NCBI RefSeq assembly: GCF_900110865.1
Contig: NZ_FOFD01000009.1
Span: 1 to 64,000, forward strand
Length of the DNA stretch: 64,000 bases
Reading direction: 5' to 3'
Origin: Natrinema salaciae
GTDB taxonomy: Archaea > Halobacteriota > Halobacteria > Halobacteriales > Natrialbaceae
The position numbers and the translations under genes are program-made. A model generated the notes under the pieces. That model did no database searches. It was not told where the DNA came from and saw only the letters and a program-made list of their open reading frames with translations. Shown here piece after piece: positions 3,253 through 62,273 of the stretch (positions are counted from its first letter, which is position 1; each line of letters opens with the position of its first letter).

Positions 3253-3369
3253 ACCGTCCAAGCGGTCCGGAAGGAGGTCGTGGTTGGGCCGGCAACGGCA
3301 AGTCGCGGGCGTTCGTCTCCCGTCGGTTCGGCGAAAGACTGGAGCCCGTTCGAAACGAACGCGTTCCCG

Positions 3370-4017
3370 ATGGGCGCTCGTCACACGTCACGAGTGGTCG
3401 CCTCCCTGCTCGGACTGGCCGTGCTCGCCGGGATCGGGTACGCGCTCCGATGGCGATCGAACCCGACACCGTGTCCGTACTCGCAGCGTGTCTGGATCGA
3501 TCTCCCTCGACCGGGGATCACACGAACCAGGGTGCGCACGCTTCTAGAGCCGCGGCCCGGCGAACGCATCCTCGAGCTCGGGCCGGGAACCGGCTACTAC
3601 ACGGGGGCGATCGCGCAATCGGTCGAACCGAACGGAACGGTACACGCCGTCGACGTCCAGCAGGCGATGGTCGACCACCTCCGAACGCGGATGCGGAAGC
3701 GGGGCCGCCGGACCGTCCAACCGATCCGTGGCGACGGACGGCGACTCCCGTATCCGGACGACAGTTTCGACGCCGCGTATCTGGTCCTCGTTCTCGGCGA
3801 AATTCCGGAGCAAGGGCGGGCGCTCGCCGAACTCGAGCGGGTACTCGAACCGGGCGGCCGACTCGTCGTCGGGGAATCGCTCCCCGATCCGCATTTCGTC
3901 GGATTCGGGACGCTCCGACGGCGCGCCGAGCGCCACGGGCTCGAGTTCGAGGACCGCGTCGGAACGCGGGGGAGCTATTACGCGCGGTTTGCGGTGGCTC
4001 CTTCGCCGCCGACATAG
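3370..4017 (+). CDS. Membrane-anchored SAM-dependent methyltransferase
   Basis: 215 residues. An N-terminal hydrophobic segment (about residues 8-25, VVASLLGLAVLAGIGYAL) probably anchors it in the membrane. A class I Rossmann methyltransferase follows: motif I ILELGPGTGYY, acidic motif II AVDVQQAMVD, and motif post-I DDSFDAAYLVLVLGEIP. UbiE-like methylation of a lipid or quinone is possible, but the substrate is unknown. The ATG at 3370 is chosen because the frame upstream is antisense to DUF302. Confidence 0.82.
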   Translation: MGARHTSRVVASLLGLAVLAGIGYALRWRSNPTPCPYSQRVWIDLPRPGITRTRVRTLLEPRPGERILELGPGTGYYTGAIAQSVEPNGTVHAVDVQQAMVDHLRTRMRKRGRRTVQPIRGDGRRLPYPDDSFDAAYLVLVLGEIPEQGRALAELERVLEPGGRLVVGESLPDPHFVGFGTLRRRAERHGLEFEDRVGTRGSYYARFAVAPSPPT

Positions 4018-55721: not shown

Positions 55722-57068
55722 TCACTCGAGTTTCCCGGCGAGAACCTTCGCCGCAGTGAGGATCGGGTCCCAGACGGGGCTGAACGGCGGCGCGTACGCC
55801 AGGTCCGCGTTCTGCAGTTCGGTGACGGTCATGTCGGCCGTCAGCGCCGTGGTAACGGTGTCGATGCGCTTTGCCCCCTCGCGGCCGACGACGGTGCCGC
55901 CGAGCAGCCTGCCGCTCTCGCGATCGGCGACCAGCGTGACGGTGAGCTCCGCGCCGTCGGGGTAGTAGTGGGCGCGCGTCGACGCCGAGATCGTCACCGA
56001 AACGGGATCGAAGCCCGCCTCGCGGGCCCGCTCCTCGTCGACGATCCCCGTCCGGGCCGCGCCGAGGTCGAACGCCTTCACGATCGCGGTGCCCGCGATC
56101 TCGCCGACCGGCGTCGGGTCCCCGGTGACGGTCTGTCCGATCGCCCGGCCCGCGCGGTTGGCGGTCAGCGCCAGCGGGACGTGGTCCGGTTCGCCGGTCA
56201 CGACGTGGGTCGCCTCGGCGCAGTCGCCCGCCGCGTAGACGTTCTCGTCGTTCGTGCGCCCGTACTCGTCGGTCGCGACGGCGCCGGTTGGGCCCAGTTC
56301 GATCCCGGCCGCCTCGGCGAGGTCGGTGTTGGGTGCCACGCCGACGCCGACGATCGCGATGTCCGCGGCGACGACCTCGTCCTCCAGTTCGACGCCGTCG
56401 ACCCGCTCGTCGCCGACGAAGCCCGACACGGCGGTCTCGAGGTGGAGGTCGACGCCCTGCTCGCGGAGGTGGTCCTCGACGACCGCGGCGACGGCCTCGC
56501 CGAACGGCTGGAGGACGTGGGGTAGCATCTCGTAGAGGTGGACGTCGACGCCGCGGGCCGACAGCGCTTCGGCCATCTCGATACCGACGTAGCCCCCGCC
56601 GACGATCGCAGCGGTCTCGGGGCCGTGCACGGTGACGTACTCCTCGATGGCGTCGGCCTCGTCCATGTCGTGGATGGTGAACACGCCCTCGAGTCCCAGC
56701 CCCTCGAACGGCGGCTCGATCGCGCTCGCGCCCGTTGCGACGAGCAGGTCGTCGTAGGGTTGTTCGTCGGTCCCGTCGTCAGTCTCGACCGTCACCGTCT
56801 GGAGTTCGGTGTCGACGTCGACGACCTCCGCGCCCGTTCGCAGGTCGACGTCCCGTTCCTCCCGGAACTCCTCGGGAGTCACGGTGACGAGGTCGTCTAG
56901 CTCGTCGACGGCTCCCTTCACGTAGTACGGCATCCCGCAGGCGGCGTAGGAGACCCACTCGCCCTTCTCGAAGACGATCACCTCGCGGTCGGGATCGTCG
57001 CGTTTCGCCTTACTCGCGGCGCTCATTCCGGCTGCGTCACCGCCGACGACCACGAACGTCTCGGTCAT
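55722..57068 (-). CDS. FAD pyridine-nucleotide oxidoreductase, CoA-disulfide-reductase-like
   Basis: 448 residues. N-terminal FAD motif VVVGGDAAGMSAASKAK, active Cys44 in SYAACGMPYYVKG (single Cys, as in CoA disulfide reductase and Nox), NAD motif AIVGGGYVGIEMAEAL, FAD motif ENVYAAGDCAEATH and a C-terminal dimer domain. The enzyme reduces CoA disulfide or persulfides, or oxidises NADH with O2 or S0. First gene of a four-gene operon with M20, DUF2892 and methyltransferase. Divergent from the copper regulator. Confidence 0.9.
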   Translation of the reverse strand: MTETFVVVGGDAAGMSAASKAKRDDPDREVIVFEKGEWVSYAACGMPYYVKGAVDELDDLVTVTPEEFREERDVDLRTGAEVVDVDTELQTVTVETDDGTDEQPYDDLLVATGASAIEPPFEGLGLEGVFTIHDMDEADAIEEYVTVHGPETAAIVGGGYVGIEMAEALSARGVDVHLYEMLPHVLQPFGEAVAAVVEDHLREQGVDLHLETAVSGFVGDERVDGVELEDEVVAADIAIVGVGVAPNTDLAEAAGIELGPTGAVATDEYGRTNDENVYAAGDCAEATHVVTGEPDHVPLALTANRAGRAIGQTVTGDPTPVGEIAGTAIVKAFDLGAARTGIVDEERAREAGFDPVSVTISASTRAHYYPDGAELTVTLVADRESGRLLGGTVVGREGAKRIDTVTTALTADMTVTELQNADLAYAPPFSPVWDPILTAAKVLAGKLE

Positions 57069-57296
57069 ACGCGAATAGTGGGGCGGTAGCGCCTAAAGTA
57101 TTTCGAGGAATTCCCAATATTATACAACTCACTGTGACCGACGACTTCGGCAGCACGTCGACTGCGTCGATCCGCTATACCCGAACGCGAGACCGATACG
57201 TGTTCGGGCGATTTGCCGAGTCGACGGTCGTCGTCCGCCATCGGCAGTTCGCTGGCGGCTACCGAACCTCGTATTCGTAACCGCTCGCCGACTACA

Positions 57297-57330
57297 CTTT
57301 GGATTGCAAAGCAATTCCGGAGGTATATCC
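57297..57330 (+). promoter_or_regulatory. Copper-regulator promoter with CTTTGGATT box
   Basis: CTTTGGATT at 57297-57305 runs into a perfect repeat ATTGC-aaa-GCAAT (57303-57315), followed by an AGGTATATCC TATA-like element (57321-57330). The start at 57353 lies about 25 bases further. The same layout occurs ahead of copA. Confidence 0.6.
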
Positions 57331-57352
57331 CGGCTCGGCACGTACGACCCCC

Positions 57353-57952
57353 ATGCGAGACCTCGACGAAACCGACATGGAAATCCTGCGACTGCTCGGT
57401 GAGGACGCCAGACGACCGTTCAGCGACATCGCCGACCGGGTCGATCTCTCCGGGCCGGCCGTCTCGGACCGCGTCGAGCGACTGCAAGAGGCGGGCGTCA
57501 TCAATCGCTTTACCGTCGACGTCGACCACTCGCAACTCCGAGCCGGCGTCCCGGTATTCGTTCAGTTATCGGGCGGGATCGGTGCCGTCGACGACCTCAG
57601 AGACCGAATCGACGACGCCGACGCGGTCGAACACGTGTTCGTCACCGCGGACGGCGAACTCTGGTTTTACGCCCGCGCACAGGTCGGAACCGTTCGCCAG
57701 TGGATCGACGGGCTGGTCGGCGACGGTGACGACGTCGATGACATCGAGTACGCGGTAACGTTGATCGACGACGTCGAGTGGCAGCCCTCGCTCGACGGAA
57801 CCGAGTTCGCGCTCACCTGCGCCGAGTGCGGCAACACCGTCGATAACGAAGGCGAGTCGACGAGCATCGACGGCCAGCTGTATCACTTCTGCTGTCCGTC
57901 GTGTCTGAGTCGGTTCGAGGATCGGTACGACCGCCTCGAGGAGAACGCGTAA
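57353..57952 (+). CDS. Lrp/AsnC-type copper regulator with TRASH domain
   Basis: 199 residues. Winged-helix Lrp domain at about 3-55 (DMEILRLLGEDARRPFSDIADRV, SGPAVSDRVERLQEAGVI), AsnC-like ligand domain at 65-140, and a C-terminal TRASH domain with Cys156, Cys159, Cys180/181 and Cys184 (CAECGN and HFCCPSC). This is the architecture of the Halobacterium regulator VNG1179C, which activates a copper ATPase. Start at the ATG 57353; upstream extension overlaps the promoter. copA follows at 58040. Confidence 0.9.
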   Translation: MRDLDETDMEILRLLGEDARRPFSDIADRVDLSGPAVSDRVERLQEAGVINRFTVDVDHSQLRAGVPVFVQLSGGIGAVDDLRDRIDDADAVEHVFVTADGELWFYARAQVGTVRQWIDGLVGDGDDVDDIEYAVTLIDDVEWQPSLDGTEFALTCAECGNTVDNEGESTSIDGQLYHFCCPSCLSRFEDRYDRLEENA

Positions 57953-57986
57953 TCGGTTCGGATTCGAAAGAACGGCTCGCCGTCTC

Positions 57987-58031
57987 CTTTGGATTTCTAT
58001 CAGAAATAGAGGTAAGTGACGGCCCCTTATA
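57987..58031 (+). promoter_or_regulatory. copA promoter with CTTTGGATT box
   Basis: CTTTGGATT at 57987-57995 overlaps the perfect repeat ATTTCT-atc-AGAAAT (57993-58007). An AGGTAAGTGA element at 58010-58019 stands where the regulator promoter has its TATA box. The box-to-start distance is 53 bases here and 56 bases before the regulator. A second TATA-like TTATAAG at 58026-58032 is too close to the start to serve a leaderless message. Confidence 0.6.
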
Positions 58032-58039
58032 AGACAATA

Positions 58040-60646
58040 GTGACTCATCGAACCACGCACCTCGAGATCCAGGGGATGAGCTGCGCGAACTGTTCACAGT
58101 CGATCACCGACGCCCTGGAGGCGCTCGACGGGGTATCGGAGGCGACCATCAACTTCGCCACCGACGAGGGCTCCGTCGAGTACGACCCGGGAGCGGTATC
58201 GCTCCGGGAGATCTACGACGCGATCGACGAAGCCGGCTACCACGCCGAGTCCGCCACCGCCTCGATCGGGATCGCCGACATGACGTGTGCGAACTGCGCC
58301 GACACCAACGAGGAGGCGCTCGAGTCGGTTCCCGGCGTCATCGACGCGGAGGCGAACTACGCGACCGACGAGGCACAGGTCGAATTCAACCCCGCCGACG
58401 TCTCGCGGTCGGCGCTCTACGACACGGTCGAGAAGGCGGGCTACACGCCCATCCGCGACGACGACGGTGCCGAGGAGTCGGACCAGGAACGGCGCGACGC
58501 CGCCCGGCAGGCGGAGATCGACAAACAGCTCCGGCTGACCCTCTTCGGGGCGGTGCTGTCGGCCCCGTTCCTGTTGTTCCTGGCCGATCGGTTCCTGCTC
58601 GGTGGGAGCGTCTTCCCCGAGACCGTCTTCGGCCTCGAGTTCGAGTGGATCGGCTTCCTGCTCGCGACGCCCGTCCAGCTCGTCCTCGGGCGGCCGTTCT
58701 ACGTGAACTCCTACAAGGCGATCGTGAAGAACGGGCGGGCGAACATGGACGTCCTCATCGCGCTGGGCTCGTCGACGGCGTACGTCTACAGCGTCGCCGT
58801 CCTGCTCGGGCAGGTCGCCGGAGAGACGTACTTCGACACCGCGGCGCTGATCCTCGTGTTCATCACGCTCGGGAACTACCTCGAGGCCCGCTCGAAGGGG
58901 CAGGCCGGCGACGCGCTCCGGAAGCTCCTCGAGATGGAGGCCGAGACGGCCACGGTCGTCGACGCGGACGGCACCGAGCGTGAGGTCCCGCTCGAGGACG
59001 TCGACGTCGGCGATCGGATGAAGGTCCGGCCCGGCGAGAAGATCCCGACCGACGGGGTCGTCGTGGACGGGCAGTCGGCCGTCGACGAATCGATGGTGAC
59101 CGGCGAGTCCGTCCCCGTCGAGACGGAGGAGGGCGACGAAGTGGTTGGCTCGACGATCAACGAGAACGGCGTGTTGGTCGTCGAGGCGACGAAGGTCGGC
59201 TCGGACACGGCGCTCCAGCAGATCGTCCGGACGGTCAAGGAGGCCCAGTCCCGTCAGCCGGAGATTCAGAACATCGCCGACCGGATCTCGGCGTACTTCG
59301 TTCCCGCGGTCATCGCCAACGCCCTGTTCTGGGGGACCGTGTGGTTCCTCTTCCCCGAGGCGCTGGCCGGCTTCGTCGACCAGGTACCCCTGTGGGGACA
59401 GGTCGCCGGCGGACCCGCCCCCGCAGGCGGCTCCGTCTCGGTCTTCGAATTCGCGATCGTCGTGTTCGCCTCGGCGGTCCTGATCGCCTGTCCCTGCGCG
59501 CTCGGACTGGCGACGCCCGCGGCGACGATGGTCGGGACGGCGATCGGCGCTCAGAACGGCGTCCTCTTCAAGGGCGGTGACGTCCTGGAGCGCGCGAAGG
59601 ACGTCGACACGGTCGTCTTCGACAAGACCGGGACGCTCACCGAGGGCGAGATGGAACTGACCGACGTCGTCGTCTTCGACGCGGACGACCAACCGGTGCC
59701 AGACGGCGGGGCGGCAGCGGCCGACAGCGATACCCCTGCGATCCGCGACCGACTGACCGAGGACGACGTCCTCGGACTCGCCGCGGCGGCAGAGAGCGGC
59801 AGCGAACACCCGCTCGCCCGAGCCATCGTCGAGGGGGCCGAAGAACGCGGCATCGACGTCGTCGACCCGGACGAGTTCGAGAACGTGCCGGGACACGGGG
59901 TCCGCGCCACCGTCGACGGCGGCGAGGTGCTCGTCGGGAACCGCAAACTGCTGCGGGACAACGGGGTCGACCCCGCGCCCGCCGCGGAGACGATGGAGCG
60001 CCTCGAGAAGGAGGGCAAGACGGCGATGCTCGTCGCCTACGAGGGCGCGCTCGCGGGCGTGGTCGCCGACGCCGACACCGTCAAAGCGAGCGCCGAGGAG
60101 GCGGTCGCCGCACTCCGCGAGCGGGGCATCGACGTGATGATGATCACGGGCGACAACGAACGGACGGCCCGCGCCGTCGCCGAACGGGTTGGCATCGACC
60201 CGGAGAACGTTCGCGCCGAGGTCCTCCCCGAGGACAAGTCCAGCGCGGTCGAGGCGATCCAGGCCGAGGGTCGGGAGGCGATGATGGTCGGTGACGGCGT
60301 CAACGACGCGCCCGCGCTGGCCGTCGCGCACGTCGGCACGGCGATCGGTAGCGGGACGGACGTCGCCATCGAGGCGGCCGACGTGACGCTGATGCGCGAC
60401 GACCCGGTCGACGTCGTGAAGGCGATCCGTATCTCCGACGCGACGCTCCAGAAGATCAAGCAGAACCTCGTCTGGGCGCTCGGCTACAACACGACGCTCA
60501 TCCCGCTGGCCTCGCTCGGGCTGCTCCAGCCGGTGCTGGCCGCCGCGGCGATGGCGTTCTCAAGCGTCTCCGTGCTGTCGAACAGCCTGCTGTTCCGTCG
60601 GTACGTCCCCGACCACGACTACGAGTTGCTCGGGTTCCTGCGCTGA
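58040..60646 (+). CDS. copA: Copper-exporting P1B-type ATPase
   Basis: 868 residues from a GTG at 58040, which gives a normal N-terminus before the first heavy-metal domain. Two metal-binding domains with MSCANC (Cys15, Cys18) and MTCANC (Cys83, Cys86), TGESVPV actuator loop, ion-site CPC at Cys484-Cys486, phosphorylated Asp528 in [19 protein letters not shown] (His-Pro of P1B pumps) and GDGVNDAP. It exports Cu+ across the cell membrane. Its promoter shares a motif with the adjacent copper regulator. Confidence 0.96.
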
Positions 60647-61919: not shown

Positions 61920-62273
61920 ATGGCACTGACCCAGATCGATCACGTCAGCGAAAACGAGGAGATGCAGGAGTGTATCGACAGCTGTTTCGAGTGCGCGCAG
62001 GCGTGCGAGTGGTGTGCCGACGAGTGCGCCGACGACGGCGAGGAGATGGCCGAATGTATCCGGCTCTGTCGGGACGTCGCCGACCTGACGACGATGCACG
62101 CGCGGTTCATGGCCCGCGACTCCGGCTACAGCACGGACATCGCCGCGATCACCGCCGACGCTTGCGAGGAGTGTGCCGACGAGTGCGAGCAACACGACCA
62201 CGAGCACTGTCAGGTGTGTGCGGAGGTCCTTCGCGAGTGCGCGGAAACCTGCCGAAACATGGCGTCGGCCTGA
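61920..62273 (+). CDS. Cysteine-rich four-helix-bundle copper-binding protein (Csp-like)
   Basis: 117 residues. Helices are lined with Cys: ECIDSCFECAQACEWCADEC (given to 20), ECIRLCRDVADL, ACEECADECEQHD, CQVCAEVLRECAETCRNMA. Copper storage proteins (Csp) of this DUF326 family bind many Cu+ ions in the bundle core. It lies 1.3 kb after copA and is probably part of the copper response, though its promoter (GGATAACAA about 30 bases upstream) lacks the CTTTGGATT box. Confidence 0.87.
   Translation: MALTQIDHVSENEEMQECIDSCFECAQACEWCADECADDGEEMAECIRLCRDVADLTTMHARFMARDSGYSTDIAAITADACEECADECEQHDHEHCQVCAEVLRECAETCRNMASA

Follow-up and report, generated by a model that had tools for sequence, protein, structure and literature searches.

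A conserved dyad before copper genes of Natrinema salaciae and other haloarchaea, the probable site of a CopR-type regulator

Organization of the regulator–copA locus

The analysed window, a 64,000-nt stretch of contig C9 of the Natrinema salaciae genome (G000), carries a copper regulator gene (57353..57952, + strand) and, behind it in the same orientation, the gene of a copper-exporting P1B-type ATPase, copA (58040..60646, + strand). The copA product (868 aa) possesses two HMA domains, an E1-E2 ATPase domain and a HAD domain, as is characteristic of CopA, and in the alignment its GTG start codon stands where relatives have their ATG. A CoA-disulfide-reductase-like flavoprotein (55722-57068, - strand) is encoded divergently from the regulator, at the place that copZ occupies in many relatives. 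Near copA lies the gene of a Cys-rich DUF326/Csp1-like protein (61920-62273, ATG at 61920), a possible copper storage protein scoring below the NCBIfam cut-off; upstream of this gene the box described below was not found (best 5 mismatches). ARAGORN detected no tRNA, and a scan for bacterial promoters and terminators yielded no useful result.

The regulator (199 aa) consists of an AsnC-type HTH, a RAM-like middle part and a C-terminal TRASH domain. The HTH of the Lrp/AsnC type is recognized by PF13404 (3.5e-15, residues 4-45) and the TRASH domain by PF24273 (3.3e-26, residues 153-199), with the cysteines C156, C159, C180, C181 and C184 invariant in all 19 aligned proteins. No Pfam RAM match was obtained for the middle domain, while its predicted elements (E66-74, H79-87, E92-97, E103-109, H111-122, E131-137) follow the beta-alpha-beta-beta-alpha-beta order of RAM in a model with a mean pLDDT of 63.9. 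The best Foldseek matches of this model are Lrp/AsnC structures (E ~1e-8), at TM-scores below 0.5. A second TRASH-family regulator, 61% identical, is encoded elsewhere in the same genome (C8:87865). In the surrounding segment (L076, G000:C8:84500-91500) this paralog occupies 3363-3950, and a box of the distal copA type lies near 3954-3968, just past its stop codon, with no copA following; this box was probably left behind when a copA was lost.

The element shared by the two promoters

According to the initial annotation, both promoters carry CTTTGGATT followed by a perfect inverted repeat with a 3-base centre, by an AGGTA element 23-24 bases on and by the start codon 53-56 bases on, the whole being read as the operator through which the Lrp/TRASH regulator controls itself and CopA. 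The letters are in place (+ strand throughout): CTTTGGATT at 57297-57305 before the regulator gene and at 57987-57995 before copA, the repeats ATTGC-AAA-GCAAT at 57303..57315 and ATTTCT-ATC-AGAAAT at 57993..58007, AGGTA at 57321-57325 (regulator, 24 from the box start) and 58010-58014 (copA, 23), and the start codons 56 (ATG 57353) and 53 (GTG 58040) bases from the box start. The window holds two copies of CTTTGGATT against 0.06 expected, a third of all copies in the 4.86-Mb genome, where six exact ones occur, both window copies included. Among Markov-shuffled pairs of the two promoters, 444/20000 (~2%) shared some 9-mer, so the window alone is suggestive and not decisive.

The comparison with relatives was carried out on upstream DNA from regulator relatives in 125 family genomes (90 regulator loci, 72 copA loci; 70 and 60 distinct sequences, respectively), queried with the 15-mer CTTTSGATTCSAAAG at limits of 2 and 4 mismatches. 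At the stricter limit the query is present in 36/70 regulator and 36/60 copA upstream sequences (shuffled-control mean 0.02 sequences each), and at the wider one in 63/70 and 58/60 (controls 3.71 and 2.33), leaving 7/70 regulator and 2/60 copA sequences in which the box is missing even at 4 mismatches. The absence of the box from the copA promoters of relatives, which had been named as the result that would speak against the proposal, was thus not encountered; it is conserved there. Its positions relative to the start codon are fixed, at about -58 and -88 for the regulator and at -53 and -84 for copA, which defines a pair of sites with a spacing of 30 or 31 bp.

The same comparison redefines the element. 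The pairing within the 3-base-centred repeats is not conserved: the fraction of cells with complementary pairs is 0.35 for the regulator (n=45) and 0.41 for copA (n=41), and these repeats were rejected as the operator. The corresponding stretch in relatives reads CTTTCGATTCCAAAG, CTTCGGATTCCAAAG, CTTTCGATTCGAAAG and so on, and judged from this alignment the conserved element is CTTTSGAWTCSAAAG, a dyad of 15 bp with a single central base, whose pair complementarity reaches 0.71 at the regulator and 0.68 at the distal copA box. At the proximal copA site of relatives the value is 0.34, and this poor symmetry makes a weak site or a half-site probable there. The dyad is rare: only four sites with at most one mismatch are present in the genome, two of them in the window promoters and the others at C1:173179 (within a long ORF) and C8:67986, neither at copper genes. 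By its conservation, then, the box shared by both promoters is real and functional, although it had been partly misread in detail.

Architecture of the regulator and copA promoters

Upstream of the regulator gene the proximal box CTTTGGATTGCAAAG (57297..57311, + strand) is a 15-bp dyad with one mismatch to the consensus. It is followed by the core promoter AGGTATATC (57321..57329, + strand), with the TATA box ~26 bases before the ATG, a spacing that implies a leaderless mRNA; this TATA box (GTATATC) is better than the GGTAAG of copA. A possible degenerate distal box, CCTCGTATTCGTAAC (57267..57281, + strand), is located 30 bp upstream of the proximal one; it is weak and, with more than 4 mismatches, falls outside the mismatch count.

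The copA promoter contains a full distal dyad overlooked by the initial annotation, GTTCGGATTCGAAAG (57956..57970, + strand), which starts 3 bp past the regulator stop codon; relative to the copA start it lies at -84, as it does in most relatives. Exactly 31 bp downstream and abutting the core promoter is the proximal box (57987..57995, + strand), in which CTTTGGATT forms the left half of a degenerate dyad with the register 57987-58001; the window copy adjoining the BRE is thus a half-site, and CTTTG occupies this position in 30/41 distinct relatives. The core promoter (58001..58016, + strand) comprises the BRE-like CAGAAATAG and the weak TATA-like GGTAAG, ~24-29 bases before the GTG, BRE and TATA being assigned by position. 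It includes the AGGTA of the initial annotation, which at both promoters falls inside the BRE/TATA region and is no separate element. In having a semi-palindrome directly upstream of the position-assigned BRE/TATA, the copA promoter resembles those of the CopR type.

An alignment of 52 of the 57 non-redundant copA promoters from several families (L037, L056, L058, L068 and L171 were omitted, their register being shifted or missing) reads TGACTTTnGATTCGAAAGTA ... ACTTTGGnTTnnnAnCAGnAAAGnGGGTAAGnnnGGAnCCCnTA, with the core-promoter consensus CAGnAAAGnGGGTAAG. In this consensus GGTAAG, ~27 bases before the start, replaces the TATA box and CAGnAAAG the BRE, both named by position. A conserved CCCnTA near -10 has its window counterpart in CCCTTATAA (58024..58032, + strand). 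TTATAA at 58027-58032 was considered as the TATA box of copA and rejected, because the alignment of the GTG with the relatives' ATG puts it near -10. An activated promoter would be expected to combine, as copA does, a weak core promoter with a box immediately before it.

Distribution of the copA-type promoter

A sequence model built from the 52 copA promoters (R1, match threshold E<=0.01) finds a single match in the N. salaciae genome, located at the copA promoter (E 3.0e-14). Across the haloarchaeal class, 123/145 genomes contain matches at this threshold and 22/145 do not. R1 lies directly upstream of 31/35 named haloarchaeal copA loci at E<=0.01 and of two more at 0.015 and 0.043, while L321 reached only E 0.3 and L300 gave no match; it was found upstream of 0/20 non-haloarchaeal copA loci searched (25 further loci of the 80 were left out). 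These genome and locus counts are not fully independent, because some of the genomes are close to the training sequences. In Halobacterium salinarum DSM 3754 the composite precedes copA at E 1.7e-8, and an HMA chaperone gene follows directly downstream; the numbering of VNG0700G and VNG0702H points to such an arrangement for yvgX too, with which this copA may be identical. As judged by these matches, close copies of the box precede copper genes across the salt-loving archaea.

The loci L151-L157, from genomes of four different families, are nearly identical in their copA promoters and in the DNA upstream of the regulator; such similarity suggests that they spread recently, probably by way of plasmids. 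At L191 (G187:C1:1237200-1239000) the regulator and copA are apparently divergent, with near-perfect dyads between them, as in Pyrococcus.

Predicted members of the regulon

From the ~150 R1 matches listed, 35 that lie in other genomes and away from known copA starts were chosen and inspected. They precede 16 copZ genes (small HMA chaperones), 7 copA paralogs, 8 SHOCT genes, 3 thioredoxin-like genes and 1 other gene, so that 34/35 belong to these four kinds. The classes were assigned by scripted sequence patterns, and nine representative proteins were scanned against Pfam, which returned SHOCT in 5/5 and thioredoxin in 2/2; the odd one has no Pfam match. Behind the copA-type promoter, small Met/His-rich SHOCT membrane proteins are encoded at L225, L229, L230, L231, L235, L237, L243 and L247 (L231 assigned by Pfam, L230 and L247 from reading the translation), and thioredoxin-like CxxC proteins at L226, L227 and L232. 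A role of the SHOCT membrane proteins in copper handling appears likely from this arrangement.

R1 missed the copZ gene of N. salaciae itself, which stands alone on C3, away from the window. A second model, R2, was built from 42/51 copZ promoters with the N. salaciae sequence excluded and L046, L064, L080, L081, L273, L274, L277, L283 and L305 omitted; no clear box is present in the omitted promoters L273, L274, L277 and L283. In the N. salaciae genome R2 recovers copZ as its sole strong match (E 1.9e-11; next best 0.22).

Many relatives have copZ and the regulator gene transcribed divergently across a gap of 126-134 bp, which makes the two boxes there common to both genes. In the window-type loci (L007-L015, the window included) no copZ was found divergently next to the regulator, and the regulator proximal box is kept at <=2 mismatches in 9/9 of them. 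This retention without a neighbouring copZ points to self-control, the box serving the regulator.

Comparison with known copper systems

In Sulfolobus, the CopT/CopR cluster unites a TRASH regulator, a metallochaperone and CopA, and the window resembles it in having a TRASH regulator and CopA as neighbours. PMC3600143 names this Sulfolobus copper cluster.

The H. salinarum regulator VNG1179C is likewise an Lrp-TRASH protein, without which copper fails to induce a CopA pump and HMA chaperones. According to PMC3551603, it is needed for the copper induction of yvgX, which is lost without it, and its own transcript is unchanged with copper; PMC3600143, where the regulator is printed as VNG1197C, calls it a Cu(II)-dependent activator. 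Its targets in these sources are yvgX (VNG0700G), VNG0702H and VNG2581H. The composite of the window is also present at the H. salinarum copA promoter, whereas the gene numbers place the regulator there away from yvgX. PMC4236453 gives a motif of VNG1179C as a figure. In a full-text literature search, with figures and most subscription papers outside its scope, no haloarchaeal copper box printed in letters was found, which is not proof of absence.

A close anatomical parallel is CopR of Pyrococcus furiosus, for which PMC7830388 describes the cop motif TTNNCAWWWTGNNAA, a semi-palindrome of 15 bp that immediately precedes the BRE, and in vitro activation of copA together with repression of copR. 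Both systems share (i) a regulator with an Lrp/AsnC HTH and a TRASH domain, controlling, here by prediction, copA and the regulator gene; (ii) a semi-palindrome of 15 bp that is A/T-rich in its centre and adjoins the BRE on the upstream side; (iii) an atypical TATA in the regulated promoters. There are also differences. Compared with the published Pyrococcus motif, the haloarchaeal CTTTSGAWTCSAAAG deviates at positions 1, 6, 10 and 15 and so does not conform to the Pyrococcus consensus; furthermore, in contrast to the P. furiosus arrangement, the regulator and copA are here tandem and not divergent, two boxes 31 bp apart are present at copA, and the predicted regulon includes an HMA chaperone. 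We class the system among the CopR-type copper switches, as a haloarchaeal form whose box has letters of its own.

Proposed mechanism

Taking together the observed conservation, position and spacing of the box, the membership of the regulon by sequence and the domain make-up of the regulator, the explanation we consider highly probable is that CTTTSGAWTCSAAAG is the site of the adjacent TRASH-Lrp/AsnC regulator, which would activate copA and copZ and control its own gene. We infer the binding protein, its copper dependence, the direction of control and the geometry of the oligomer as follows. The dyad would be bound by the CopR / VNG1179C type of Lrp/AsnC-TRASH regulator encoded next door. At copA the regulator would find a full site and, 31 bp further on, a degenerate one that borders on the BRE of a weak core promoter; 31 bp correspond to about three helical turns, which places both sites on one face of the helix. 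The copper-loaded regulator, as an Lrp oligomer, may bind both sites and recruit or stabilise TBP/TFB, thereby switching copA on, and copZ, elsewhere in the genome, would join the regulon through a promoter built alike. Self-control would be exerted at the one good site in front of the TATA box of the regulator gene, more likely as damping than as copper-driven induction, since the H. salinarum regulator transcript is unchanged with copper (PMC3551603). By its anatomy, the system would therefore work like CopR, with activation of copA and copZ and damping or basal control of the regulator. Several observations count against this explanation: the proximal copA box of the window is a half-site, the distal box of the regulator is degenerate, R1 gave no match in 22/145 class genomes, 7/70 regulator and 2/60 copA upstream sequences lack the box, two of the four closest sites in the genome lie away from copper genes, and the 61% identical paralog could bind the same box.

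The initial proposal is supported in that the site is best explained as one at which the Lrp/TRASH regulator controls its own gene and CopA. At copA, the word operator should probably read upstream activating site, because the box abuts a weak core promoter from upstream and the H. salinarum relative is described as an activator. A true repressor operator, in which the apo-regulator covers the copA BRE/TATA and leaves on binding copper in the manner of CsoR or CopY, is unlikely. The box does touch the core promoter, and metal ions weaken P. furiosus CopR binding in vitro (PMC7830388); however, the site lies upstream of the BRE/TATA and not over it, the TATA of copA is weak, which fits a promoter that is activated, and deletion of the H. 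salinarum regulator abolishes the copper induction of yvgX (PMC3551603).

Equally improbable is another binder, either the TRASH paralog on C8 or an unrelated metal regulator, with the adjacent regulator a bystander. The 61% identical paralog could bind the same box, and a box remnant lies just after its own stop codon, but across the class the box accompanies the family of the window regulator together with copper genes, and the window regulator has it both before itself and before copA. That the shared 9-mer arose by chance, or belongs to haloarchaeal core promoters in general, is a very remote possibility: some 9-mer is shared by 444/20000 shuffled promoter pairs, but this reading is contradicted by the mere six exact CTTTGGATT copies in 4.86 Mb, the fixed box positions in dozens of relatives, the 34/35 inspected matches before the same few gene kinds, and the R1 counts of 123/145 class genomes and of 31/35 haloarchaeal against 0/20 non-haloarchaeal copA loci.

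The activating arrangement may extend to a class-wide haloarchaeal copper promoter code, a proposal we put forward tentatively and at somewhat less than even chances. Two dyads fixed 30-31 bp (three turns) apart would be combined with a degenerate TATA (GGTAAG / ACAAAG), and an Lrp-TRASH oligomer wrapping ~50 bp would substitute for the TATA on copper binding; the code would reach beyond efflux to the Met/His-rich SHOCT membrane proteins and the CxxC thioredoxin-like protein.

Significance for archaeal copper biology

The haloarchaeal copper regulator hereby gains a precise, testable predicted DNA site and a promoter grammar, and the site is tied to a regulator with published H. salinarum genetics. 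The tight spacing combined with a weak TATA makes a neat model for Lrp-type activation of an archaeal promoter. For work on archaeal copper, the SHOCT and thioredoxin-like proteins are provided as predicted regulon members; if the class-wide code is true, they would represent components of copper defence in archaea that have so far escaped recognition.
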